IMG/VR virus record: IMGVR_UViG_3300008339_000534
Span: 1-22,589 of that record
Origin: a virus
Length of the DNA: 22,589 nucleotides
Reading direction: 5' to 3' (one strand)
Part shown: positions 469 through 21,443 of the stretch, piece by piece
Layout of the letters: each line of letters starts with the position of its first letter
How positions within the stretch are numbered: position 1 is the stretch's first letter
Program-made: the position numbers and the translations under genes
Notes under the pieces: model-generated
What the model was told of the DNA's origin: nothing
Seen by the model: the letters and a program-made list of their open reading frames with translations, nothing else
Databases searched by the model: none

Positions 469-1953
469 ATGGCAAGACCTAAATCAATTCCTAAACAAAT
501 TATATGTAAAAATTGTGAAATTATATTTGAAGATCTTCCTTCTTCTAAAAAACAATTTTGTTCTAATCCATGTGCCCAACAATATAAAGGTAAAGATAAA
601 ACATGGTTAGAGAAAAGAAAACAAACATGTTTAGAAAAATATGGAGAAGAAATAGCCTTTAAATCTTCACAAGTTCAAGAAACATATAAAAAAAATCTAA
701 AAGAAAAATATGGAGTTGAAAACCCTTTTTTAGTACCAGAATTTAAAAATAAAGCTAAACAAACTTGTATTGATAAATATGGTCATGAAGTAGCCTCTCT
801 TAATAAAGATATATCTAATAAAATATCAGAAAAATTAAAAGGAAGAGAACCAAATAGAAAAAATTTTATTGATATAAAATGGGAAAAATTATTAGAATAC
901 GAAAAAATATCTAATATGAAACCTTTATTTGATATTCAATATTTAGAAGATAATAAATTAAATCATATTTTTAAAAATAAATTTCAATTCCAATGTACAA
1001 AATGTAATAGTATTACTGAAGTATATTTGAGTAATGGGTACTTACCTTCATGTCAATGTTCAGATTATAAAGGTTATTCTTTGATTGAAGATGAGATTAT
1101 TAATTTTTTAAAACAAAATGGTATCAATAATATTTTATTAAATAGAAGGGATATAATTCCTAATAGATTAGAAATTGATATCTTTCTTCCAGATTATAAT
1201 TTAGCTATTGAAGTTAATGGAGTTTATTGGCACTCTGAAGCTATGGGGAAGTATAAAGATTATCACTTATATAAAACAGAGAAATGTTTAGAAAAAAACA
1301 TTGAATTAATTCATATTTTAGATTATGAATGGTTATTTAAAAAGAATATAATCTGTTCAATCATTTTGAATAAACTTATATTAAATCAAAATAAAATTTA
1401 TGCGAGAAAATGTGTCCTTAAAGAAATAATTGATACTAAACAATTAAAAACGTTTTTAAATGAAAATCATATACAGGGATATACTCATTCTTCTATTAAT
1501 TTAGGTTTATTTTTGGGTGATGATTTAGTCTCAGTTATGACTTTTTCTAAAAATAGGTTTAAAAAACAATCCAATGAATATGAGATGGTGAGATTTTGTA
1601 ATAAATTAAATCATAATATAATTGGAGGAGCTAGTAAATTATTTAAGTTTTTTCTTAAAAATTACAATAATGATAACTTTAATATTATAAGTTTTGCTGA
1701 TAGAAGATTTTTTAATGGAAATTTATATTTAAATTTAGATTTTATTTTTGATAAATATACTGATCCATCTTATATTTATTGGAAAGATAATAAAATATTA
1801 CATAGAATGTCTTGTCAAAAACATAAACTATCCAAATTACTTCCTTTATTTGATAATAATCAAACAGAATATGAAAATATGAAAAATAATGGGTGGAGAA
1901 GAATTTGGGATTGTGGTAATATAAAATTTATATATGAAATAAAAAAGCCCTAA
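469..1953 (+). CDS. Vsr-like (PD-D/ExK fold) homing endonuclease, zinc-finger type
   Basis: This 494-residue protein resembles the large 'YWHSE' endonucleases that are common as free-standing homing genes in T4-like phages (Hef / I-Bth0305I-like group). In order it has: a CxxC...CxxxC zinc-binding knuckle (C13, C16, C31, C35); two or three copies of a 'K-x-T-C-x-x-KYG' DNA-binding repeat (about 50-110); and a second Cys cluster (C176, C179, C195, C197). The nuclease core follows at about 205-290, with EID (D237), IEVNG (E248) and YWHSE (H255). The C-terminal domain (about 310-494) contains YARKC, HIQGYTHSSINLGL, LVSVMTF, GGASKLFKFFL and WDCGN, and it is shared with the other endonuclease in this window. 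Its role would be site-specific DNA cleavage that spreads its own gene. It is the only convincing plus-strand gene and lies between sheath and tube genes. Its stop codon lies inside a terminator hairpin. The C-terminal domain has GNAT-like spacing, which is inference only. Confidence 0.85.
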   Translation: MARPKSIPKQIICKNCEIIFEDLPSSKKQFCSNPCAQQYKGKDKTWLEKRKQTCLEKYGEEIAFKSSQVQETYKKNLKEKYGVENPFLVPEFKNKAKQTCIDKYGHEVASLNKDISNKISEKLKGREPNRKNFIDIKWEKLLEYEKISNMKPLFDIQYLEDNKLNHIFKNKFQFQCTKCNSITEVYLSNGYLPSCQCSDYKGYSLIEDEIINFLKQNGINNILLNRRDIIPNRLEIDIFLPDYNLAIEVNGVYWHSEAMGKYKDYHLYKTEKCLEKNIELIHILDYEWLFKKNIICSIILNKLILNQNKIYARKCVLKEIIDTKQLKTFLNENHIQGYTHSSINLGLFLGDDLVSVMTFSKNRFKKQSNEYEMVRFCNKLNHNIIGGASKLFKFFLKNYNNDNFNIISFADRRFFNGNLYLNLDFIFDKYTDPSYIYWKDNKILHRMSCQKHKLSKLLPLFDNNQTEYENMKNNGWRRIWDCGNIKFIYEIKKP

Positions 1954-10684: not shown

Positions 10685-13600
10685 TTATACATATTGTAAA
10701 TAGATATCTCCATCGTTTCCTCCTGATGGCAATGCTGTTCCTGATGTGAAATTGGCCCCTACTACCACTGTTTTGTTATACCAGGCTGTCAATACTGATC
10801 CTGATGGAGGAGCTGTATTAAATGTAAATACTCCTGCAGAAGGTGTTGTTTCAACCCAGTCTTGACTTACCCCTTGAGTTAAAACTTGTCCATTTATTGC
10901 GACTACTAAAGTTCCTGTAATATAAACCCCTTGTGAAACTGTATATGAAGTATTACTTCCATCTATAGCTCCAGTTAATAAACCGTATGAACCATTGTCA
11001 GGAGACTGGTCTATATAAATTTGTGTATTACCTCCTCCTGCTCCTCCATTTAATGCATAAGAAGCTGTTAAGGCAAATGATGCACTTTCGGCCCAACTTG
11101 ATGTTCCTAATAAAGATCCTGTAAATGAACCTGTAAAAGAACCTGTTGTTGAACTTCCGGGTGCATTTAATGCAAATGATGCAGTTAATGCATTTGTAGC
11201 ATACGAAGCCGTACCTAATAGAGAGCCGGTAAAACTACCGGTGAAGCTTCCGGTTGTTGTACCTGCTGTAGCATTTAAAGCAAATGAGGCTGTTAGTGCA
11301 TAAGAGGAACTAATGGCTTGTGATGAACTAATAGCCCAACTGCTTGTTCCAAGTAAAGATCCTGTGAATGAGCCTGTAAATGATCCTGTGTTGTAAGAAG
11401 AAGTAAAGTTATTTATTGACTGGGTAAAGCTATTAAAACTAGAAGTTGTTACAAATGAACCTGTATCAATAGCACCCCCTGCATTTAATACAAATGAGGC
11501 TGTTAATGCATATGAAGAGGATAAAGTATTTGTTGCATATGAAGAAGTTCCAAGTACTGAACCTGTAAATGAACCTGTAAAACTTCCTGTATTAGCAGAC
11601 CCTGTGTAATTATTGAATGTAGTTAACAGTGTATAATTTGGTGCAAATGAAGCCGTTAATGCAAAAGATGATGTTATTGCTGTAGATGAACTTACTGACC
11701 AGCTAGAAGTACCAAGTAAACTTCCTGTGAAACTTCCTGTGAAACTTCCTGTGTTATAAGAAGATGTAAAATTATTTATTGACTGGGTGAAAGAATTAAA
11801 TGAGCTTGTAGTTACAAATGAACCTGTGTTTATATTTGTTCCAGCATTCAAAGCAAAAGATGCTGTTGTAGCAAACGAAGAACTAATTGCTTGAGAAGAA
11901 CTTACTGCCCAACTAGAGGTTCCTAGTAAAGATCCAGTAAAACTTCCTGTAAATGATCCTGTGTTATAGCTACTTGTAAAATTGTTAATAGATTGTGTGT
12001 AACTATTGAAACTTGATGTTGTTACAAAAGATCCTGTATCAATAGCACCCCCTGCATTTAAAGCAAAAGATGCTGTTAATGCAAATGATGAAGAAATTGC
12101 TTGAGAAGCACTAACAGCCCAACTACTTGTTCCAAATAAACTACCAGTAAATGAACCTGTAAAACTTCCTGTATTAGCAGATCCTGTGTAATTATTGAAT
12201 GTAGTTAATAAAGTATAATTAGGAGCAAAGGAGGCTGTTTCTGCAAATAAAGCATATGATGCTGTTGATACTGAACCTGATTGCGAGACTGTAACATCAA
12301 ATGTTGTTCCATCACCTCTTGTAAAAGTTATAGTTGTATTTGCTGCAGAAGCTGTAATTACTCCTTTTAAAGGGAATGAAGAAGTTACAGCAAAAGAAGA
12401 ACTAATTGTTTGTGAAGAACTAATTGCCCAACTTGATGTTCCTAATAAACTACCTGTAAATGAACCTGTGAAACTACCGGTAGTATAACTACTAGTAAAA
12501 TTATTTATCGATTGGGTAAATGAATTAAAACTTGAGGTTGTAACAAACGAACCCGTGTTTATAGTTGTTCCGGTATTTAATGCAAAGGAAGCTGTTGATG
12601 CAAACGAAGCACTTGTAGCAAAGGATGAAGAGATAGCTTGTGAAGAACTAATTGCCCAACTAGAAGTACCAAGTAATGAACCCGTAAAGGATCCTGTAAA
12701 GCTACCTGTGTTATATGATGAAGTAAAGTTGTTAATAGATTGTGTGTAACTGTTGAATGAACTCGTAGTTACAAATGAACCTGTGTTTATTGCTGCCCCA
12801 GCATTCAAAGCAAACGAGGCTGTTAAAGCAAATGATGAAGAAATTGCTTGAGACGATGATTGTGCCCAACTAGAGGTTCCTAGTAAAGACCCAGTAAACG
12901 ATCCTGTAAAACTTCCTGTATTATAAGAGGAAGTAAAATTATTTATTGATTGGGTAAAGCTATTAAAACTAGAAGTTGTTACAAATGATCCGGTATTTAC
13001 AGTTATCCCAGCATTCAAAGCAAATGAAGCAGTTGTAGCAAAAGATGAAGAAACGGCTTGAGATGATGATTGTGCCCAGCTTGAAGTACCTAGTAAACTT
13101 CCAGTAAAAGATGTTGCTTGAAAACTTCCTGTTAATCCATAACTTCCAGTTAATTGTTTTGAATTAACCCATATTGAACCAGATTTAACTAATAAATCTC
13201 CATAAGAAGATGTGGTGGTTGTGTCCAGTACATCATGTAATTCACCCAATTCATATCCATTATCTATACGAACATATATTGAACCATTATTCAACTGCAC
13301 TCGTAATACTTGTCCTAATCTAACAGCATGTAATGGAGCTGAAGGAGCAGATCCTATAATACTACCTGTAGCTCCTAAATATAATAATTGACCTACGGTA
13401 AAACCATCCGTATTAATACCAAGTAATTTTCCCTCGGTTATTACATATCCAAAGGCATCGTTAGCAATATTTTCGTTAGTAATTCCTAAAGTATTGGCTG
13501 AATTGAAATCATCCGTATAGGAAGCTGTTGCAATTAAAGGATTGTCCCCTACTGCTCCTGAGATTAATACAACTGTTCCTTTGTTAATTTGATTACCTGT

Positions 13601-14242
13601 CTGGTTTTTAACATAGATTAAAATATCCGAAGCATTTAATGCTGAAGAAGCAGTAGCAGCATATGATGAACTAATTGCTTGAGAAGCACTAACTGACCAG
13701 CTAGATGTTCCTAATAAACTACCTGTAAATGAACCTGTGAAACTACCGGTAGTATAACTACTAGTAAAATTATTTATTGATTGGGTAAAACTGTTAAAGC
13801 TTGAGGTTGTAATAAATGACCCAGTATCTATTGTTGTTCCTGCATTTAACGCAAAAGAAGCCGTTAAAGCATATGAAGCAGATGTTGATGAAGATGCATA
13901 TGAAGCACTTATAGCAAATACAGCATTTGAAATACTTCCTGAAAAGAAAGATGCTGTTAAAGCAATATTGGCTACACTAGCTGTTCCATATAATGAACCA
14001 GTAAATCCTTCAGTGGCAGATACAGAACCTGTAATTTCCAATGATGAGGTTGTTGTATATACACTACCACTTCCTGGTGTAAATGGTTGTGAAGATCCTG
14101 AAGGACCTGCAGGACCAATTATGCCAGGATAAGATACTTCAACAACCCCTGTTATAGGATTAATATTTATTACATTATAACTAGGATTTACCTCTACTAT
14201 ATTATTTTCAGGGGTTATCTTAACCGGATTAAATTTTGCCAT
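10685..14242 (-). CDS. large repetitive tail fibre protein
   Basis: This 1185-residue fibre has an N-terminal region with NPITGVVEVSYPGIIGPAGPSG, including a short collagen-like GPAGP turn. The rest is mainly repeats. I count eleven units of the type TGSFTGSFTGSLLGTSSW and seven units TTSSFNSFTQSINNFTSSY, alternating with A/S-rich segments such as SSSQAISSSFALTASFALN. A non-repeat insert of about 140 residues (about 205-345) contains KNQTGNQINKGTVVLISGA and HAVRLGQVLRVQL, a known type of fibre beta domain. The C-terminal 110 residues (TQIYIDQSPDNGSYGLL to GGNDGDIYLQYV) look like a tip domain. It is the largest gene here and probably the long tail fibre shaft. It starts at ATG 14242, 10 bases after the 131-residue gene, with no Shine-Dalgarno sequence. 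Confidence 0.88.
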   Translation of the reverse strand: MAKFNPVKITPENNIVEVNPSYNVININPITGVVEVSYPGIIGPAGPSGSSQPFTPGSGSVYTTTSSLEITGSVSATEGFTGSLYGTASVANIALTASFFSGSISNAVFAISASYASSSTSASYALTASFALNAGTTIDTGSFITTSSFNSFTQSINNFTSSYTTGSFTGSFTGSLLGTSSWSVSASQAISSSYAATASSALNASDILIYVKNQTGNQINKGTVVLISGAVGDNPLIATASYTDDFNSANTLGITNENIANDAFGYVITEGKLLGINTDGFTVGQLLYLGATGSIIGSAPSAPLHAVRLGQVLRVQLNNGSIYVRIDNGYELGELHDVLDTTTTSSYGDLLVKSGSIWVNSKQLTGSYGLTGSFQATSFTGSLLGTSSWAQSSSQAVSSSFATTASFALNAGITVNTGSFVTTSSFNSFTQSINNFTSSYNTGSFTGSFTGSLLGTSSWAQSSSQAISSSFALTASFALNAGAAINTGSFVTTSSFNSYTQSINNFTSSYNTGSFTGSFTGSLLGTSSWAISSSQAISSSFATSASFASTASFALNTGTTINTGSFVTTSSFNSFTQSINNFTSSYTTGSFTGSFTGSLLGTSSWAISSSQTISSSFAVTSSFPLKGVITASAANTTITFTRGDGTTFDVTVSQSGSVSTASYALFAETASFAPNYTLLTTFNNYTGSANTGSFTGSFTGSLFGTSSWAVSASQAISSSFALTASFALNAGGAIDTGSFVTTSSFNSYTQSINNFTSSYNTGSFTGSFTGSLLGTSSWAVSSSQAISSSFATTASFALNAGTNINTGSFVTTSSFNSFTQSINNFTSSYNTGSFTGSFTGSLLGTSSWSVSSSTAITSSFALTASFAPNYTLLTTFNNYTGSANTGSFTGSFTGSVLGTSSYATNTLSSSYALTASFVLNAGGAIDTGSFVTTSSFNSFTQSINNFTSSYNTGSFTGSFTGSLLGTSSWAISSSQAISSSYALTASFALNATAGTTTGSFTGSFTGSLLGTASYATNALTASFALNAPGSSTTGSFTGSFTGSLLGTSSWAESASFALTASYALNGGAGGGNTQIYIDQSPDNGSYGLLTGAIDGSNTSYTVSQGVYITGTLVVAINGQVLTQGVSQDWVETTPSAGVFTFNTAPPSGSVLTAWYNKTVVVGANFTSGTALPSGGNDGDIYLQYV
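10685..14242 (-). repeat. degenerate intragenic fibre repeats (TGSFTGSFTGS family)
   Basis: The gene contains two interleaved repeat families: eleven TGSFTGSFTGSxxGT units and seven FNSxTQSINNFTSSY units, plus further degenerate FTGSLxGT copies near the start and middle. The protein repeats are nearly identical, but the codons differ from copy to copy (for example the two Gly-Ser-Phe blocks use different third positions). The copies are therefore diverged at DNA level rather than freshly amplified. Confidence 0.8.
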
Positions 14243-14685: not shown

Positions 14686-15357
14686 TTACTGTTTTTTAAA
14701 TTCAAAATCAAGGATTTTTCCAACTAAATCTGAGCGATGATTATGTTGTAATTTAATCCATTTAATTTCTTCAATATTTTTAGATAATTCAATTGCATAA
14801 GATAATCCATTTATTTCACCGGAGGATGGTTTTATGTCAATTTGATTATTATCACCATTAATTACTATTTTACCATTTTTTCCCAAACGAGTTAAAATAG
14901 CTAACATTTCTCCTTTAGTTAAGTTTTGGGCTTCTTCAACAATTAAAATATCATCAATTGTTTTTCCTCTAATAAATTGAACAGGCATTGCCTTAATTTT
15001 TTCTTGTTCAATTAATTTAGGAATTTCAGTTTTATCTTGACAGCATTTGTTTAAATTTTCTACTAAAGCCTCCATATAAGGATCAAATTTTTCAGATAAT
15101 CCGCCCGGCAAATAACCTAAACTTTTACCCACTTCAATGGCGGCTCTAGTATTGTAAATACAATTGATTTGTTTTTTCTTTAAAAAGTCTAAGGCTGTAT
15201 TTGCACAGACCAAACTCTTTCCACTTCCTGCAGCCCCCGTTACTATAACTATCTGATTTTCTATAATTAATCTTTTTGCTTCTTTTTGTTCTTCATTTAA
15301 ACTTATTGCATTGATAGCTTTAATTTCATTTTTTCTTTCTCTGTTTGGTTCTTTCAT
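14686..15357 (-). CDS. phoH: PhoH-like ATPase
   Basis: This 223-residue protein is a PhoH-family P-loop ATPase of the RNA/DNA-linked helicase-like type, widespread in phages and common in T4-like marine phages. Residues about 17-32 (SLNEEQKEAKRLIIEN) form the helix before the core. Walker A is GAAGSGKS at about 42-49 and Walker B is ILIVEEAQN near 140. GDNNQIDI and a C-terminal LQHNHRSDLVGKILDF motif (the family HRSDLV box) are present. Its role in phage is unknown; RNA or stress-related functions are discussed for the family. It ends the three-gene accessory operon. A 7-base gap separates it from the upstream decarboxylase gene, and ATG 15357 has no Shine-Dalgarno sequence. It is a little shorter than bacterial PhoH (about 350). 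Confidence 0.92.
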   Translation of the reverse strand: MKEPNRERKNEIKAINAISLNEEQKEAKRLIIENQIVIVTGAAGSGKSLVCANTALDFLKKKQINCIYNTRAAIEVGKSLGYLPGGLSEKFDPYMEALVENLNKCCQDKTEIPKLIEQEKIKAMPVQFIRGKTIDDILIVEEAQNLTKGEMLAILTRLGKNGKIVINGDNNQIDIKPSSGEINGLSYAIELSKNIEEIKWIKLQHNHRSDLVGKILDFEFKKQ

Positions 15358-15364
15358 AAGTTTT

Positions 15365-16084
15365 TTATTTGAATTTTATCTTTACTAAAGGATCAATACC
15401 TGCTTGAACATGCATGTGGTCTTCTAAACATAATTCAAAATCAAACCTTTCATCAATTCCTAAAATCATCTCCACCTGAGAGCCCCAACGTATCATTGAA
15501 AATCTTTCATTTTGGTTAAACATTTCATTTTGATCAGGAACAAAATGTGAAATAACATCAACATCTTCATCAGCTATTTGAATTAAATAATATGTGTAAT
15601 CCAATGAAGGTGAATAAATTTTATTCCACATTCTTTCATTGTATTTTAGATAATCTAAATTAGCAGGATTAATTTTGCCATTGAATATATCTTTTTCGGT
15701 GGCCAACATTGGTTTATTAGTTGATTCTATCGCGTCTATAGGTTTATATGACAAACAGCCTCCGTAAGGTATACGATTGATGTGAACATCATAAAATGAC
15801 ATGAATATACCAATTACTAACGATGGTTTATTGTAAGTTTTATCACACATTGCATCCTGTAATGTATAATTTATGCCTTTTATTTCAACTATAGATTCTG
15901 TAGGATCTTCAATGAATTTTTGATATAAAATGGTACCATCTGCTGGTGAATAAAAATGTTCATGGTCAATGAATATTGGTCTAGCAGGGTCCCTAAAGAA
16001 AAATTGATTTGAAAGTTGACCAATGGATAATTTTTCAGCTTCTGCAACATCTGTGTCAAGCCATTCCTCTAAATATTTTGCCAT
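15365..16084 (-). CDS. psd: phosphatidylserine decarboxylase-family protein (pyruvoyl enzyme)
   Basis: This 239-residue protein has the signature motifs of phosphatidylserine decarboxylases, pyruvoyl enzymes that decarboxylate phosphatidylserine to phosphatidylethanolamine. FYSPADG has D49. FMSFYDVHINRIPYGG has H101. The YNERMW segment corresponds to the family's RNER-type box. IRWGSQVEMIL has G201-S202 at the expected self-cleavage position. These match the catalytic Asp, His and Ser of the bacterial enzyme, so activity is plausible. Short forms of about 220 residues occur in bacteria. No transmembrane helix or signal peptide is obvious. The ATG overlaps the previous stop by one base (TAATG), which indicates translational coupling to the amidinotransferase gene. 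The substrate is uncertain, since some family members act on amino acids such as tryptophan. This is an unusual gene for a phage. Confidence 0.85.
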   Translation of the reverse strand: MAKYLEEWLDTDVAEAEKLSIGQLSNQFFFRDPARPIFIDHEHFYSPADGTILYQKFIEDPTESIVEIKGINYTLQDAMCDKTYNKPSLVIGIFMSFYDVHINRIPYGGCLSYKPIDAIESTNKPMLATEKDIFNGKINPANLDYLKYNERMWNKIYSPSLDYTYYLIQIADEDVDVISHFVPDQNEMFNQNERFSMIRWGSQVEMILGIDERFDFELCLEDHMHVQAGIDPLVKIKFK

Positions 16085-16998
16085 TAGATTAAAGATTTAG
16101 TATAGTCAACATAATTTAAGTGCATAACACAACAAGACAACATAGCCCCTGATTTCATAAATTCTGATAGATTGAAAAATACAGGTTCCATTCCTTCGTT
16201 GGCACATATTTTTTCTAGAGTATTGATTTTATGTAATTCCGCATCATATAATTCGTCTGTTTTTTTCAATTCTGAAATGTTGGATGCACATAAAATCATA
16301 TTTCCTAATCTAACTGAGTTAGTTAAACCTCCAAAAGCATCATCAACATTTATATCAATGATTTGAGTATGTTTTTCAATTTGTTGTAATTCTTCAGGGT
16401 CAAACAATTCGGTACAAATTAATGTTTTTTCATTGGTTAATGGAAAAATTGAACAATCCAAATGATATAAATAATCTTCAACCATTTCAACTGGAATTAT
16501 ATTCATGTTAAAATTTTCTGACATCCAATTATATGATTCTATTTCTGAGCGAATACCAAATCCACCAATATAATTGTTTCCACCAATATATTTTAAATCT
16601 GCTTCTCCTTCCCACTTATAAGGACAAATGGTAGTGTTGTAATTCATTAATTTAAAAAATGGTTGGGCTACTTTTTCTTCACCTTGTCTAGGTTCTGAAG
16701 TAAAATTGGATAGGATAATTTCATTTTTATCTTTTAAATGTGGTAAATAAATACCTACATTTGCAACGTATGTTTGATCTTGGTAGTTACCATATGAAGG
16801 CATTAAGTATACTAAAGCACCCCCAGCCATAAAGTTATATAAATCCATAAATTGTTTATATGCTTTAGGCCTATTAATTTGTAAATCTTCAGGTGATAGT
16901 TCATTCATCCAAACATTGTTTGGATTTTCCGTAGATAATGTAAATGGAAAATTCAATACATAACTTGGAATAGATAGTTGTGATGGTGTTTCTTTCAT
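16084..16998 (-). CDS. amidinotransferase / arginine-deiminase superfamily enzyme
   Basis: This 304-residue protein belongs to the guanidino-modifying fold (DDAH / arginine deiminase / amidinotransferase). Near residue 25 it has NPNNVWMNEL, the substrate-side start. EGEADLKYIGG holds E130, E132 and D134; YHLDCSIFPL has H179 and D181; and the C-terminal SGAMLSCCVMHLNY contains C289/C290, one of which is the likely nucleophile. A GGFGIRSE segment follows the acidic motif. The likely chemistry is attack of Cys on a guanidino carbon, with release of ammonia, an amine or a transferred amidine. The exact substrate cannot be read from sequence. The ATG at 16998 is followed downstream by the coupled decarboxylase gene. 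Two promoter-like sites lie upstream (ATATTTAT 28 bases and TATAAATA 7 bases before the ATG). It may be an auxiliary metabolic gene. Confidence 0.8.
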   Translation of the reverse strand: MKETPSQLSIPSYVLNFPFTLSTENPNNVWMNELSPEDLQINRPKAYKQFMDLYNFMAGGALVYLMPSYGNYQDQTYVANVGIYLPHLKDKNEIILSNFTSEPRQGEEKVAQPFFKLMNYNTTICPYKWEGEADLKYIGGNNYIGGFGIRSEIESYNWMSENFNMNIIPVEMVEDYLYHLDCSIFPLTNEKTLICTELFDPEELQQIEKHTQIIDINVDDAFGGLTNSVRLGNMILCASNISELKKTDELYDAELHKINTLEKICANEGMEPVFFNLSEFMKSGAMLSCCVMHLNYVDYTKSLI

Positions 16999-17075: not shown

Positions 17076-18587
17076 TTAAAAAAGAAAAAGAGTATATTTG
17101 GTTGTACCACAATCCCATACTTTTGTATAACCCATTGATTTCATAATTTCATATTCAGTTTTGTTTTCAGTATCTGCTCCTAATTTTTTTAATCTTTGTT
17201 TATTAAAATTATATCTATGTAATCTACTTAAATAATCTTTAGTATAAAAATAATTTGGTGAAGATTGTCTTTCAATTTCAAATCCTAATTTTAAATACAT
17301 ATTATTATTAGGATCAGTCCATCTATTATCTGAGTATGAGTAAATGGATTTTGGATTGTATTTTTTTACAAAGTATTTTATTAATTTATTTGAACCCCCA
17401 CATATATAGGTTTTAGAAGCAAACCTAGATAATTCATATGAAGTTTTATCCAATGGATTACCTCCTAATGATATTCTTGGATAGGAAAACGTCATTACAG
17501 ATACTAATTCTTCCATGTAATAAAGACCTAATTTTATTGAACTTCTGTCTTCACCTTGTATATGATATTGATTTAAAAATTCATTTTTTATTTGTGAACT
17601 TATTTCTTTAACAATACATTTCCTAGCATATATTCTAGAAGATTTAGTTTTATTTATTATAGTATTTAATTTACTTTTAACTATTGTCTTTTTATTAATC
17701 CATTCGTCTGAAAAAATATGAATTAATCTTATTCCTGCATCATTAGCTTTTTGAGTTTTATTTAAATGATAATCTGATAATTTTCCATTTTTTTCTGAAT
17801 GCCAATAAAGTCCATTGTATTCTATAGCTAAATTTATATCAGGTAAATAAATATCAATTTCATATTTTGGGATGATTTTTCTAACATTTATTAATATATT
17901 TCCAGAATAGATTGTTTTTATGTATTCAACTAGTTCTATTTCTTCTTTAGATTGTTTTCCTATGTTGGAAAATACTTCCCAATCCCAATGACCTTTTATA
18001 TAATCTCTATGATATGTTTCTTTATTTAAATCACAATTTTTTCCATTTTCTAATATAGTAACAGGTTGTCCACAACCACATTTACATAAAGGAGTTTCAT
18101 TATTTAAATAATTTTCAATTATATATTCACTTTTATTTATTTGTGGATGAAATTTTGATAGATGATACATTAAGTGTTGATTACTATTCATTTTTTCACC
18201 ACATAAATTACAATGAATATTGGATTGTGTTTGTTTTTTTAGATTTTCTAGTTTTTTAGGTCTGAATTCTCCATGTAATTTTACATATTCTTCAGTATTA
18301 GAATTATGAACCCATTTTAAATGTAGAGCCATTGTTCTTGGGGTTTCATCAGAATTACATATTTTGCATTTGAATGAGTTTGGTTTAGTTTTATTATTTA
18401 TTATATTAAATTCTTCTCCTTCAAATCTCCATACAAACCCACCTGCTGTTTTATATTTTCCTATACAACAATTTATTATTGAATCATAATTTATTATATG
18501 AGTTGCTTTGGATGCTTCTTGGAATATATTTATAATGTTCCCATTTAAATCATATTGAATTACTTTTTTATTATATTTTTTCTTCAT
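17076..18587 (-). CDS. Vsr-like (PD-D/ExK fold) homing endonuclease with NUMOD1-like and zinc-finger domains
   Basis: This 503-residue protein has a NUMOD1-like N-terminus (QYDLNGNIINIFQEASKA ... TAGGFVWRF, about 8-55). Two zinc-finger units follow: C74-C77-H89-H94 within HLKWVH, and C126-C129-H142-H147. A CKCGCGQ cluster lies near 168-174. The nuclease core contains EID (D245), LAIEYNG (E256) and YWHSE (H263). The C-terminal domain (about 305-503) has IYARKC, HIQGEDRSSIKLGL, LVSVMTF, GGSNKLIKYF and WDCG, and is clearly homologous to the plus-strand endonuclease. It lies between the capsid terminator and the amidinotransferase operon and has its own promoter-like element. It would cut an allele lacking the insertion and so spread itself. 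No intron or intein borders are seen, so it is free-standing. Confidence 0.86.
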   Translation of the reverse strand: MKKKYNKKVIQYDLNGNIINIFQEASKATHIINYDSIINCCIGKYKTAGGFVWRFEGEEFNIINNKTKPNSFKCKICNSDETPRTMALHLKWVHNSNTEEYVKLHGEFRPKKLENLKKQTQSNIHCNLCGEKMNSNQHLMYHLSKFHPQINKSEYIIENYLNNETPLCKCGCGQPVTILENGKNCDLNKETYHRDYIKGHWDWEVFSNIGKQSKEEIELVEYIKTIYSGNILINVRKIIPKYEIDIYLPDINLAIEYNGLYWHSEKNGKLSDYHLNKTQKANDAGIRLIHIFSDEWINKKTIVKSKLNTIINKTKSSRIYARKCIVKEISSQIKNEFLNQYHIQGEDRSSIKLGLYYMEELVSVMTFSYPRISLGGNPLDKTSYELSRFASKTYICGGSNKLIKYFVKKYNPKSIYSYSDNRWTDPNNNMYLKLGFEIERQSSPNYFYTKDYLSRLHRYNFNKQRLKKLGADTENKTEYEIMKSMGYTKVWDCGTTKYTLFLF

Positions 18588-18682: not shown

Positions 18683-20377
18683 TTAAATAGTGTTTAAACC
18701 ATTAACATAAATTTTCGCATAGAATTCAGGTCTTAACATCTTCTTAGCATAACGAGTCAAGAGACCTTTTCTAGGAGTGAAGGTATCAGGATCGTACACA
18801 AGAGGAGTCATGATTAAAGGAATATAAGGAGCAAATACAGCACCAGTTTCCAAGAACTGAGAACCTTTGTAACCCATTAAGATTAGATTTTCAGTCAAGT
18901 AAGGATTCTTATAAACCTTGTAACGACCATTTACTAAACCAACTTTCTGTACACCGAAAGCATATTCCATTTGGTCGGCCTCACCATTGTTGGTAGAAGC
19001 AAATCCAGGGATAGATTCAATAATAGTTGCTACTGTAGGAGAAGTTACTAAGAAGTTAGCACCTCCTCTTAAGGTTAACTGGTGGATTTTGTTGCTTAAC
19101 TTTTGGATTTTAGTTCCTAAAGTTTGGAACCATTGTCCTTGAGTATTGTAATACGAAGAAGTACTGAAAGTACCATTGTTTGCAATTACTTGGTTAGAAA
19201 TAGCTGACCAGTATTCAGTTCCAGCGGCTGCATCTTCAATTAACATATCAAGAACTTCAAGATCAATTTCCATAGAAATATACTCGCTCATGATATTGGT
19301 TAATTCAGCTTCAGCATCAATGTTTTGGTAAGCAGCCAAATCTTGAGCAAATTCAGGAGTCCATACAGCCTTTAACTTTTTAGTTTTAGCGGTAATGGGT
19401 TGAGATTGCATTCTAACATTGATTTCAGGAATAACAATTTGAGAAGTTGAAGCATTGTTAGGTACTGAGAATGCACCAGATGCTTCAAAATCACCTCTAC
19501 CTGAACCACTAAAGTTATTACCACCAGAGAACACGTTTGAACCATCTGCTGAACCCGCCTTTTGATAAGTTACTACATAAGTACCATTGGCTGCTAATTC
19601 AGCTGAAGAAGCACTAACTAGGAAAGTAATAGTTTGGTTAGTGTAATTAAAAGTGGTGAATTGTTGGAAGTTATCTGCTAAAGTAATAGTAGAACCAGAA
19701 GTAATTATAAATCCTCTTACTGCTTCCATATCAAATGCTGGTAGATTAGAAGATGAAACTATAAGTTTTTTAATTGTTCCAGCAGCAACTGAAGCAGAAT
19801 AATCAGAATCAAAGTTTACATCTTGGAATGAAGCAGAAGAATTTGCAGTTACAGGAACAGCCATAGATGCTGAGAACTGGTTAGTTGCATAAGTGAATCT
19901 GCCTGAAGGTCCACCATATAAACCACCAGCTGCTTCAGCAGTTGCAAATGGGAACTGAGATGCAGTGTTTCTGTTACCATATAAAGACTGACCTTGGGTA
20001 AATGGATTCTTTGCATCTCCATATTGGAAATCCAAGAAGAACACAAGACCAGAAGGCATGTTCATAGGTTGTACAGAAACGAATTCTTTGGCTACGATAG
20101 TACCAAACACTTTTCTAACTAGAGGTAAAGCAATACCAGCCCAGTTTTCACCTTGCCCACCTGAAAGGAAAGCAGAGTTAGAAGAAATCTGGTTTGCTTC
20201 TACTACTAATTGTTTTGCTTGGTTTTCCAAGAGCATTGACATGTTGTTTTTGTCAATATCATTCAATCCTTCTAACAAACCGGTTTTTCTCCATTTGTTA
20301 GCTAATTTGGCAGCATCACTTTGGATTGATTTCCAAGATCCAGCTGAGCTTTCTAAGAGTTGTTGTACTTGTGACAT
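18683..20377 (-). CDS. major capsid protein, T4 gp23-like
   Basis: This 564-residue protein forms the head shell. The N-terminus MSQVQQLLESSAGSWKSIQS is followed by KWRKTGLLEGL and MSMLLENQAKQL, as in gp23. The conserved HK97-fold entry reads GIALPLVRKVFG and SVQPMNMPSGLVFFLDFQYG. The middle has ISMEIDLEVLDMLIEDA and a G-rich TLRGGANFLVTSP. The C-terminus has a YKNPYLTENLILMGYKG segment and GLLTRYAKKMLRPEFYAKIYV. Gp21-type cleavage sites after LLE51 or VVE60 are possible, which is inference from the T4 rule. I use ATG 20377, 13 bases after the scaffold stop. A longer frame from a TTG at 20434 overlaps the scaffold gene and is less likely. The leader is A-rich. Confidence 0.96.
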   Translation of the reverse strand: MSQVQQLLESSAGSWKSIQSDAAKLANKWRKTGLLEGLNDIDKNNMSMLLENQAKQLVVEANQISSNSAFLSGGQGENWAGIALPLVRKVFGTIVAKEFVSVQPMNMPSGLVFFLDFQYGDAKNPFTQGQSLYGNRNTASQFPFATAEAAGGLYGGPSGRFTYATNQFSASMAVPVTANSSASFQDVNFDSDYSASVAAGTIKKLIVSSSNLPAFDMEAVRGFIITSGSTITLADNFQQFTTFNYTNQTITFLVSASSAELAANGTYVVTYQKAGSADGSNVFSGGNNFSGSGRGDFEASGAFSVPNNASTSQIVIPEINVRMQSQPITAKTKKLKAVWTPEFAQDLAAYQNIDAEAELTNIMSEYISMEIDLEVLDMLIEDAAAGTEYWSAISNQVIANNGTFSTSSYYNTQGQWFQTLGTKIQKLSNKIHQLTLRGGANFLVTSPTVATIIESIPGFASTNNGEADQMEYAFGVQKVGLVNGRYKVYKNPYLTENLILMGYKGSQFLETGAVFAPYIPLIMTPLVYDPDTFTPRKGLLTRYAKKMLRPEFYAKIYVNGLNTI

Positions 20378-20390
20378 TTGTTTTGTTTTT

Positions 20391-21443
20391 TTAATTTGTT
20401 GGTTTAATTCCAGCAAGTTGTTGCCATCTTGCAAATTGATCGTTTACTTCAAGAATTGGTTTCTTTTCGGCCACACCAGAGGGTTTAGAAGCAAATCCTC
20501 TTAATAATGATTCATTAACAAAGGTTTTCTTTTCTTTTAATCCTCCAGATAAAGATTCAAATACTAATTTTGCTTCTTTAACTGTTGTGGCTTTATCGAA
20601 AGCAGCCAATACTTTTACTTTTTGATTTTCGGTTAAATTTTTGGCTTTGAAGATTTTATTGGTGTAAAGTAACTTAGCGTTGAATAAATTTACCTCGTTA
20701 AGTTCAGATTTGATAGTTTTGATAGTTTCATATGCTTCGTTAATTTCTTTTTTAAGTTTCTTAACTTCACTTTTAGCTTCTTCAACCTCTTTTTCTTTTT
20801 TAACTTCGTTCATTAATTCCTCTACATCTACTTCATCTTCCATTTCTTCTTCATCATCCATTTCCATGTCTTCACCTTCTGATTCTTCACCAGCTTCTAG
20901 TTCACCGGCTTCAACCATATCAGCAATTACATCTTCAATGAATGATTTTAAATCTTCTTCAGTCATGTCCTCTAGACTCATAGATTCTTCATTTTCATCA
21001 CCTTCGGCCTCAGCTAGGAGTTCATCTAGATCGATTTCATCTAAATCACCAGCAATGTTTCCATGCTCTCCATCTCCATCTGGGAAGTCGGTTAGGTTGA
21101 TGTTTTCATCCATTTCGTCTAATTCTTTTAGAAGTTCATCTAGGTCAATTTCATCCATGGATTCTTTTTCTAGTGCATCTTTAGTAGACATAGAGTGTTC
21201 ATCTCCATATTCTTCTAATTCGATTTCATCTAGTTCTTCATCCATTAATTCGTTTTCCATGATGTCTTCATCTGCCTCTTCTAGATCATAATTTTCATCC
21301 ATTTCTGAAAGTTTTGCTGCAAACATTTCTTTCATACGTGGGGTGAAAACTTCCTCTAAAGCGGCTTTTGCATTGGCAATGGCTGTTTCCTTAACAGCTT
21401 TAGCATCGGCAATGGCTTCTTTAAGTAAGTCCCTGTTTGTCAT
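20391..21443 (-). CDS. prohead scaffold protein, T4 gp22-like
   Basis: This 350-residue scaffold core protein fills the procapsid and is degraded by the prohead protease before DNA packaging. The N-terminal helix MTNRDLLKEAIADAKAVKET is followed by AALEEVFTPRMKEMFAAKL. A highly acidic region (about 55-215) contains two copies of a DEIDLDELL unit. A long K/E coiled coil (about 215-265) follows, and then a C-terminal part with NLFNAKLLYTNKIF and RWQQLAGIKP, which is typical of gp22 in T4-like environmental phages. The ATG at 21443 is chosen over a TTG at 21461: a GAGGA sequence at 21455-21459 lies 11 bases upstream. The capsid gene follows by 13 bases. No enzyme activity is expected. Confidence 0.88.
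   Translation of the reverse strand: MTNRDLLKEAIADAKAVKETAIANAKAALEEVFTPRMKEMFAAKLSEMDENYDLEEADEDIMENELMDEELDEIELEEYGDEHSMSTKDALEKESMDEIDLDELLKELDEMDENINLTDFPDGDGEHGNIAGDLDEIDLDELLAEAEGDENEESMSLEDMTEEDLKSFIEDVIADMVEAGELEAGEESEGEDMEMDDEEEMEDEVDVEELMNEVKKEKEVEEAKSEVKKLKKEINEAYETIKTIKSELNEVNLFNAKLLYTNKIFKAKNLTENQKVKVLAAFDKATTVKEAKLVFESLSGGLKEKKTFVNESLLRGFASKPSGVAEKKPILEVNDQFARWQQLAGIKPTN

Follow-up and report, generated by a model that had tools for sequence, protein, structure and literature searches.

A conserved phage gene pair encoding an arginine-dihydrolase-like enzyme and a predicted soluble pyruvoyl decarboxylase: a possible route from arginine to putrescine

INTRODUCTION

Two described enzyme groups come closest to the pair of proteins analysed here: the arginine dihydrolases, ArgZ (Sll1336) and the dihydrolase domain of AgrE (Alr4995), and the PF02666 phosphatidylserine decarboxylases (PSDs), with the E. 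coli enzyme (7cnw/6l06) as the reference. In ArgZ, Asn71 is the residue that takes the enzyme past the deiminase step. The amine, carboxylate and catalytic positions of arginine deiminase (ADI) and DDAH have been described, and DDAH has a Lys at the HxD/HxK position, which admits its methylated substrate (PMC11659421). For E. coli PSD the roles of the catalytic residues are established, with D90 and D142 acting in complement, and the enzyme needs its N-terminal helices for membrane binding (PMC7952604). The PSD fold also works on free amino acids, in PsiD (tryptophan) and in the Aspergillus oryzae arginine decarboxylase. These two precedents are fungal and larger than the phage protein, to which they have no sequence match at E≤10. 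To our knowledge neither has a guanidino-enzyme partner, and we know of no ornithine decarboxylase that uses the PSD fold.

Phages are already known to make putrescine or agmatine with pyruvoyl ornithine/arginine decarboxylases derived from SpeD (PMC9992855, PMC10407285). Unlike the protein described below, these have the AdoMet decarboxylase fold, and neither paper mentions PSD or amidinotransferase homologues. Campylobacter phage records already label the two genes 'phosphatidylserine decarboxylase' and 'aminidotransferase'; the Fletchervirus 'phosphatidylserine decarboxylase' and 'amidinotransferase' genes are a homologous pair, 37–39% identical to the one studied here and annotated from family names alone. 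The 'glycine amidinotransferase' of CP220/CPt10, found in radical-SAM clusters, was treated as different; neither phage is among our AMT matches. The GenBank note AF210249_12 may hint at a link with the bleomycin cluster.

Here we describe the pair in a virus record of 22,589 bases, the whole of which was analysed and is called the window below. The upstream 304-aa protein is referred to as AMT and the downstream 239-aa protein as PSD-like.

RESULTS

The gene pair and its neighbours

Profile searches identified T4-like genes in the window, including the gp23 capsid, an S77 protease and a contractile tail sheath. The two genes of the pair meet at the sequence CTAATGGCAAA, in which a single A is common to the TAA stop and the ATG start (Table 1). 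The open reading frames, the one-base overlap and the motif positions given by a first-pass annotation of this DNA were reproduced exactly, and its placement of the pair among head genes, with PhoH, applies to the relatives as well (capsid gene upstream, PhoH downstream). Both proteins match PHROG families to which no function is assigned (phrog_12670, E=2e-42; phrog_12759, E=8e-59).

Table 1. Positions of the gene pair, its predicted functional residues and neighbouring genes (window coordinates unless another locus is named)
Feature	Position	Strand	Basis
AMT, guanidino-group-modifying, arginine-dihydrolase-like, 304 aa	16084..16998	-	ORF, profile, fold, residue evidence
PSD-like soluble pyruvoyl decarboxylase, 239 aa	15365..16084	-	ORF, PF02666, PHROG, residue evidence
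One-base overlap of stop TAA and start ATG (TAATG)	16084..16084	-	sequence
EGEAD motif, AMT catalytic Glu130	16597..16611	-	alignment
AMT Asn80, equivalent of ArgZ Asn71	16759..16761	-	alignment; PDB 6juz is the N71S form
AMT Arg104, predicted alpha-carboxylate contact	16687..16689	-	alignment, PMC11659421
AMT Arg150, predicted alpha-carboxylate contact	16549..16551	-	alignment, PMC11659421
YHLD motif, AMT His179 and Asp181	16456..16467	-	alignment, PMC11659421
AMT Cys289, predicted catalytic nucleophile (ArgZ Cys264)	16132..16134	-	alignment, structure comparison
SPADG motif, Asp49 (E. coli PSD Asp90)	15935..15949	-	alignment
DVHINR motif, Asp99 and His101 (E. coli PSD Asp142, His144)	15773..15790	-	alignment
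PSD-like Asp172, subfamily-invariant; Gly/Ala in canonical PSDs	15569..15571	-	alignment
Gly201-Ser202, predicted self-cleavage/pyruvoyl site (E. coli PSD Ser254)	15479..15484	-	alignment
PhoH-like ATPase, conserved downstream neighbour	14686..15357	-	profile match, locus comparison
Major capsid protein gp23, conserved upstream neighbour	18683..20434	-	profile match, locus comparison
Free-standing homing endonuclease, between capsid gene and pair	17076..18587	-	profile match, locus comparison
Related homing endonuclease genes	window 17076-18587; L138 10799-12319; L139 5731-7185		42-46% identity

Most relatives have no homing endonuclease in the gap between the capsid gene and the pair. In each of the three phage lineages a related endonuclease gene adjoins either AMT or PSD-like (identities in Table 1) and may have helped the genes to move; Campylobacter phages carry ~10 such genes, so the adjacency could be chance. 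A second homing-endonuclease-like gene in the window (469–1953, plus strand) has DUF7487 and a weak Mom-family match, and its product is 47% identical to the first endonuclease (17076–18587) across its C-terminal 290 residues. Between PhoH and the tail genes lies a gene for an 1185-aa protein (10685–14242, minus strand) for which no convincing family match was found; judged by its position it may be a fibre protein or another component of the virion. The T4 late promoter TATAAATA occurs in 8 exact copies in the window, one of which starts 15 bases ahead of the AMT gene. As evidence for late expression of the pair the motif is uninformative, since 3 copies are on the minus strand and 5 on the gene-poor plus strand of this AT-rich DNA.

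AMT resembles arginine dihydrolases

AMT carries the motifs EGEAD (residues 130–134), YHLD (178–181) and SGAMLSCC (283–290). Its assignment to the guanidino-modifying enzymes, made earlier from these motifs, is borne out by matches to the NCBIfam dimethylargininase and arginine dihydrolase models (~1e-22). In the Pfam search it had no match at E≤0.1 to PF02274 (AGAT, SxtG, StrB1) and was below the cut-off of PF19420 (21.8 of 23 bits). The best PDB sequence matches were AgrE and ArgZ (E to 3e-31), DDAH reached just 9e-4, and no amidinotransferase was among the reported matches. The predicted structure (pLDDT 94.5) has the alpha/beta-propeller fold of the guanidino-modifying superfamily and is nearest to ArgZ/AgrE (Z ~35 over 263–265 residues, 1.8 Å), followed by AstB (Z 28), DDAH (27), arginine deiminase (26) and AGAT/SxtG (~24.5). 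The nearest kin of AMT are thus arginine dihydrolases and not the amidinotransferases after which it had been named.

In an alignment of 36 AMTs, D74, N80, R104, E130, R150, H179, D181, N227 and C289 are retained in 34, and Asp181 is present in all 36. Cys289 is the conserved member of two adjacent cysteines; C290 varies. The key residues match the positions described for ADI and DDAH (PMC11659421), with D74, R104, R150 and D181 at amine-, carboxylate- or guanidino-binding positions and E130, H179 and C289 at catalytic ones. Asp181 in place of Lys argues against a DDAH. Asn80 corresponds to ArgZ Asn71, the Asn that replaces the second guanidino-binding Asp. AMT therefore shares with ArgZ and the AgrE dihydrolase domain the fold, the Cys-His-Glu set, the Asn71-type residue and the contacts for the amine and carboxylate of arginine. 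It differs from them in being ~24% identical, in lacking the ornithine cyclodeaminase domain and in occurring, within the phage/PSD clade, with a decarboxylase. It also scores 77.9 bits against the NCBIfam arginine dihydrolase model NF052232, far under the cut-off of 450. AMT probably works like an arginine dihydrolase, yet we do not file it as a member of NF052232; judged by homology alone, our best guess is that it would convert arginine to ornithine.

PSD-like belongs to a separate soluble subfamily

Of the two Pfam matches anticipated in the first-pass annotation, that of AMT to PF02274 failed, whereas that of PSD-like to PF02666 is clear (E=6e-23, 82 bits, cut-off 22). PSD-like is thus a pyruvoyl decarboxylase-type protein, as had been proposed. 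With E. coli PSD it shares the domain, the Asp/His/Ser set and the Gly-Ser pyruvoyl site (motifs SPADG at 46–50, DVHINR at 99–104 and GS at 201–202): D49, D99, H101, G201 and S202 are retained, the equivalents of E. coli D90, D142, H144 and S254, and the G201-S202 processing site is invariant. Both proteins of the pair accordingly keep the intact catalytic residues that had been read from the sequence (C289/H179/E130 in AMT, D49/D99/H101/S202 in PSD-like).

PSD-like stays under the cut-off of the NCBIfam PSD and archaetidylserine decarboxylase equivalogs (best 74 of 183 bits). A profile built from the phage proteins scores subfamily members at 238–316 bits (split or partial copies, e.g. that of Photorhabdus, score lower) and canonical PSDs at 21–33 bits. 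In a tree, the pair-type PSDs separate from the canonical ones at 95/95 support, to be read with caution given the long branches. The subfamily has its own residues D172, E130, N103 and Q203, of which D172 and E130 are the acidic invariants found only there, and an insertion of ~20 residues before the N-x-R motif. In contrast to E. coli PSD, no N-terminal membrane segment was found: FFRDP starts at residue 29, and no 19-residue stretch has a mean hydropathy >0.95. The decarboxylase of the pair is a separate PSD subfamily without a membrane segment.

The predicted structure of PSD-like is of moderate quality, and with it Foldseek found no match at E≤0.001. A second structural aligner placed E. 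coli PSD at Z ~10.5 and EIIA-type domains at 11.7, which is weak fold evidence; the weak matches include PsiD and the A. oryzae arginine decarboxylase. In a Bacteroides phage copy (L138, 9949–10794) Asp99 is replaced by Ser while Asp49, His101 and the Gly-Ser site are kept; loss of this D142 equivalent in Bacteroides phages may be tolerable because D90 and D142 of the E. coli enzyme complement each other.

The two genes are kept together in phages

Both genes are present in 129 of 136 viral loci, and in the 7 exceptions a contig end lies beside the missing gene; the junction is tight in 114. Wherever the flank was long enough, the capsid gene was upstream (98/98) and PhoH downstream (112/112). 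This recurring order shows that the pair belongs to related phages and is not an assembly chimera. Codon comparison gave median dN/dS values of 0.14 and 0.10 for the two genes. Purifying selection acts on the pair, which is nearly universal among the relatives, and its conservation is far beyond chance.

Among 50,697 phage records, PSD-like was found in 45 and AMT in 46; all 45 have both, and the odd record (PP921807.1) holds an AMT fragment alone. The 45 are Bacteroides phages, in which the genes are adjacent, and Campylobacter phages. Unlike the pair in the window, the two genes are ~42 kb apart in Campylobacter phage NCTC12673, and their retention though unlinked argues for a joint function. 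A search of 10 phage records, some of them perhaps fragments, found neither spermidine synthase (PF01564) nor AdoMet decarboxylase (PF02675), so the phage would depend on its host for later steps.

The pair in bacterial genomes

A scan of bacterial genomes for AMT yielded 33 loci, one of which lies on a phage contig that was binned as a Flavobacteriales genome. This contig has the phage gene order and an AMT 68% identical to that of the window; it is possibly a hint at the host, possibly a binning error. Of the 32 cellular loci, 19 have the PSD-like gene directly upstream of AMT, in the order opposite to that of the phages. The pairs come from Actinomycetota, Xenorhabdus, Photorhabdus, Methylococcaceae, Acidobacteria and others, and a MATE or ABC exporter often adjoins them. 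In Latescibacterota both genes are retained with PSD-like ~0.6 Mb from AMT and its MATE gene. The distribution is scattered: 2 of 198 genomes of the Xenorhabdus family have the pair, and in Pseudonocardiaceae the same 13 of 249 genomes carry AMT and PSD-like, a co-occurrence in which linked genes travel together and which is no independent functional test. All 12 of the 12 cellular genomes with a linked pair that were searched contain a canonical PSD in addition.

Seven Pseudonocardiaceae pairs (L218–L221, L223–L225) have lost key AMT residues beside an intact PSD-like, for example Cys289 to Ser, Ala or Arg and His179 to Arg. These degenerate AMTs look like pseudoenzymes or repurposed partners, and because the decarboxylase stays intact AMT may sometimes be a mere partner subunit. 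In Photorhabdus tasmaniensis (L160, 592–2435) PSD-like is split into two separated pieces, with AMT and an ABC exporter as neighbours; Xenorhabdus has intact copies. Three alphaproteobacterial AMT relatives (L162, L164, L165) lack a neighbouring decarboxylase gene; each is preceded by the gene for a TPR protein that contains an adenylate-cyclase-like domain.

Other decarboxylases take the place of PSD-like in cyanobacteria

Four cyanobacteria have, next to AMT, a gene for an AR-fold PLP decarboxylase of the Orn/Lys/DAP type, whose closest solved relatives are lysine/ornithine decarboxylases. In a fifth, Spirulina, the neighbour is an Orn/Lys/Arg decarboxylase of the OKR_DC family, whose fold is different again. 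Neither the two AR-fold-gene genomes that were searched nor the Spirulina genome yielded a PSD, canonical or pair-type. A search of 292 genomes gave no further case besides the seed, so the replacement is documented in five genomes. One partner enzyme is thus accompanied by decarboxylases of three unrelated kinds, two of which come from basic-amino-acid families. A shared reaction explains this best, and the replacement argues that the substrate of PSD-like is a basic amino acid and not phosphatidylserine. The AMT tree agrees with this: the cyanobacterial AMTs form one supported group, separate from those of phages and those linked to a PSD gene. Two further members of the cyanobacterial cassettes, an agmatine-deiminase-like protein (L142, 9147–10121) and an ABC exporter of the cyclic-peptide type, hint that a guanidino or amine compound is exported.

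DISCUSSION

We propose that AMT, as an arginine dihydrolase, and PSD-like, as a PSD-fold pyruvoyl ornithine decarboxylase, form a self-contained arginine-to-putrescine pathway in phages, to which bacteria add a dedicated exporter; we give this reading a probability of roughly 0.4. Its parts differ in strength. The substrate of the decarboxylase is probably a soluble basic amino acid, while the exact route from arginine through ornithine to putrescine by these two enzymes comes close to an even chance but falls short of it. AMT would bind free L-arginine through Asp74 (amine) and through Arg104 and Arg150 (carboxylate), as judged by homology and its residues; Cys289, aided by Glu130 and His179, would attack the guanidino carbon, and with the ArgZ-type Asn80 the enzyme would strip both nitrogens, giving L-ornithine, CO2 and ammonia. 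PSD-like would cut itself before Ser202 to generate the pyruvoyl group and would then decarboxylate L-ornithine to putrescine. It may have lost the membrane-binding part of PSDs because its substrate is soluble. Putrescine levels in the infected cell would rise in this way, which could help the phage, for example, to offset the charge of its packaged DNA or to sustain translation. Campylobacter and Bacteroides make putrescine via agmatine, so the phage pair would be a bypass via ornithine. In bacteria the same two-enzyme module would make an amine, and the exporters often paired with it suggest that cells may make something beyond putrescine.

The nearby exporters and the co-occurrence of the genes in 13 of 249 Pseudonocardiaceae and in 45 of 45 phages count for the arginine–ornithine–putrescine route. 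Against it stand the agmatine-deiminase-like protein of cyanobacteria, which would be superfluous, the degenerate Pseudonocardiaceae AMTs, the later polyamine genes not found in the 10 phage records, the 78 of 450 bits of AMT and the moderate PSD-like model with its weak fold matches.

Some of this evidence would also suit a different small molecule. AMT could be an amidinotransferase or deiminase acting on an arginine-derived compound, with the decarboxylase acting on its product and bacteria exporting a secondary metabolite; the exporters, the scattered distribution in Pseudonocardiaceae and the Xenorhabdus family and the second guanidino enzyme in the cyanobacterial cassettes all speak for it. 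We consider it unlikely, if a serious competitor, as AMT is closer to dihydrolases than to amidinotransferases in both sequence and fold, its Asn80 is conserved, and the cyanobacterial replacements resemble ordinary ornithine/lysine/DAP decarboxylases. Could PSD-like instead be an arginine decarboxylase that makes agmatine, with AMT using either agmatine or a different pool of arginine? The PSD-fold arginine decarboxylase of A. oryzae is a precedent, and the cyanobacterial cassettes contain an agmatine-deiminase relative. This is rather improbable: AMT retains contacts to alpha-amino and alpha-carboxylate groups, which would be needless with agmatine, and the two enzymes would compete for arginine.

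The first-pass annotation had named altered host lipid or amine pools among the possibilities, and a true PSD that shifts host lipids to phosphatidylethanolamine, beside an independent or head-group-modifying AMT, would fit the PF02666 match, the full catalytic set and the phosphate-contacting Tyr98. We now hold it to be very unlikely, since PSD-like has no N-terminal amphipathic or transmembrane segment of the kind that E. coli PSD needs, comes on top of a separate canonical PSD in 12 of 12 genomes and is substituted by unrelated amino-acid decarboxylases in cyanobacteria, and since the obligatory AMT partner would be left unexplained. Least credible of all is that the pair contributes to the modification of phage DNA or virions by supplying a precursor or a step, e.g. 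for a putrescinyl-type base, even though it adjoins capsid genes and phages use amines in base modification: the bacterial operons with the same module have exporters, no modification genes were noted in them, and the Campylobacter phage annotation offers no obvious partner enzyme. The two-step pathway, which had been called speculation, is now better supported than the lipid idea and is, as a putative pathway, the best-supported reading.

Among the papers searched, none links the two genes; the only one that names both treats psd and GATM separately. As far as we can tell, it is unreported that these decarboxylases form a soluble subfamily of their own, that the cellular operons have the reversed gene order and that other decarboxylases replace PSD-like, and the partner logic and predicted function of the pair look new. 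If the proposed pathway is correct, the genes labelled as lipid enzymes in dozens of Campylobacter phages, and their relatives in many aquatic phages, would encode makers of polyamines or amines, and some 'psd' calls in surveys of viral auxiliary genes may have been misread. A further protein fold would join the ornithine decarboxylases, an arginine-to-putrescine route would come to light in bacteria, and the question of why phages manipulate host amines would become testable.
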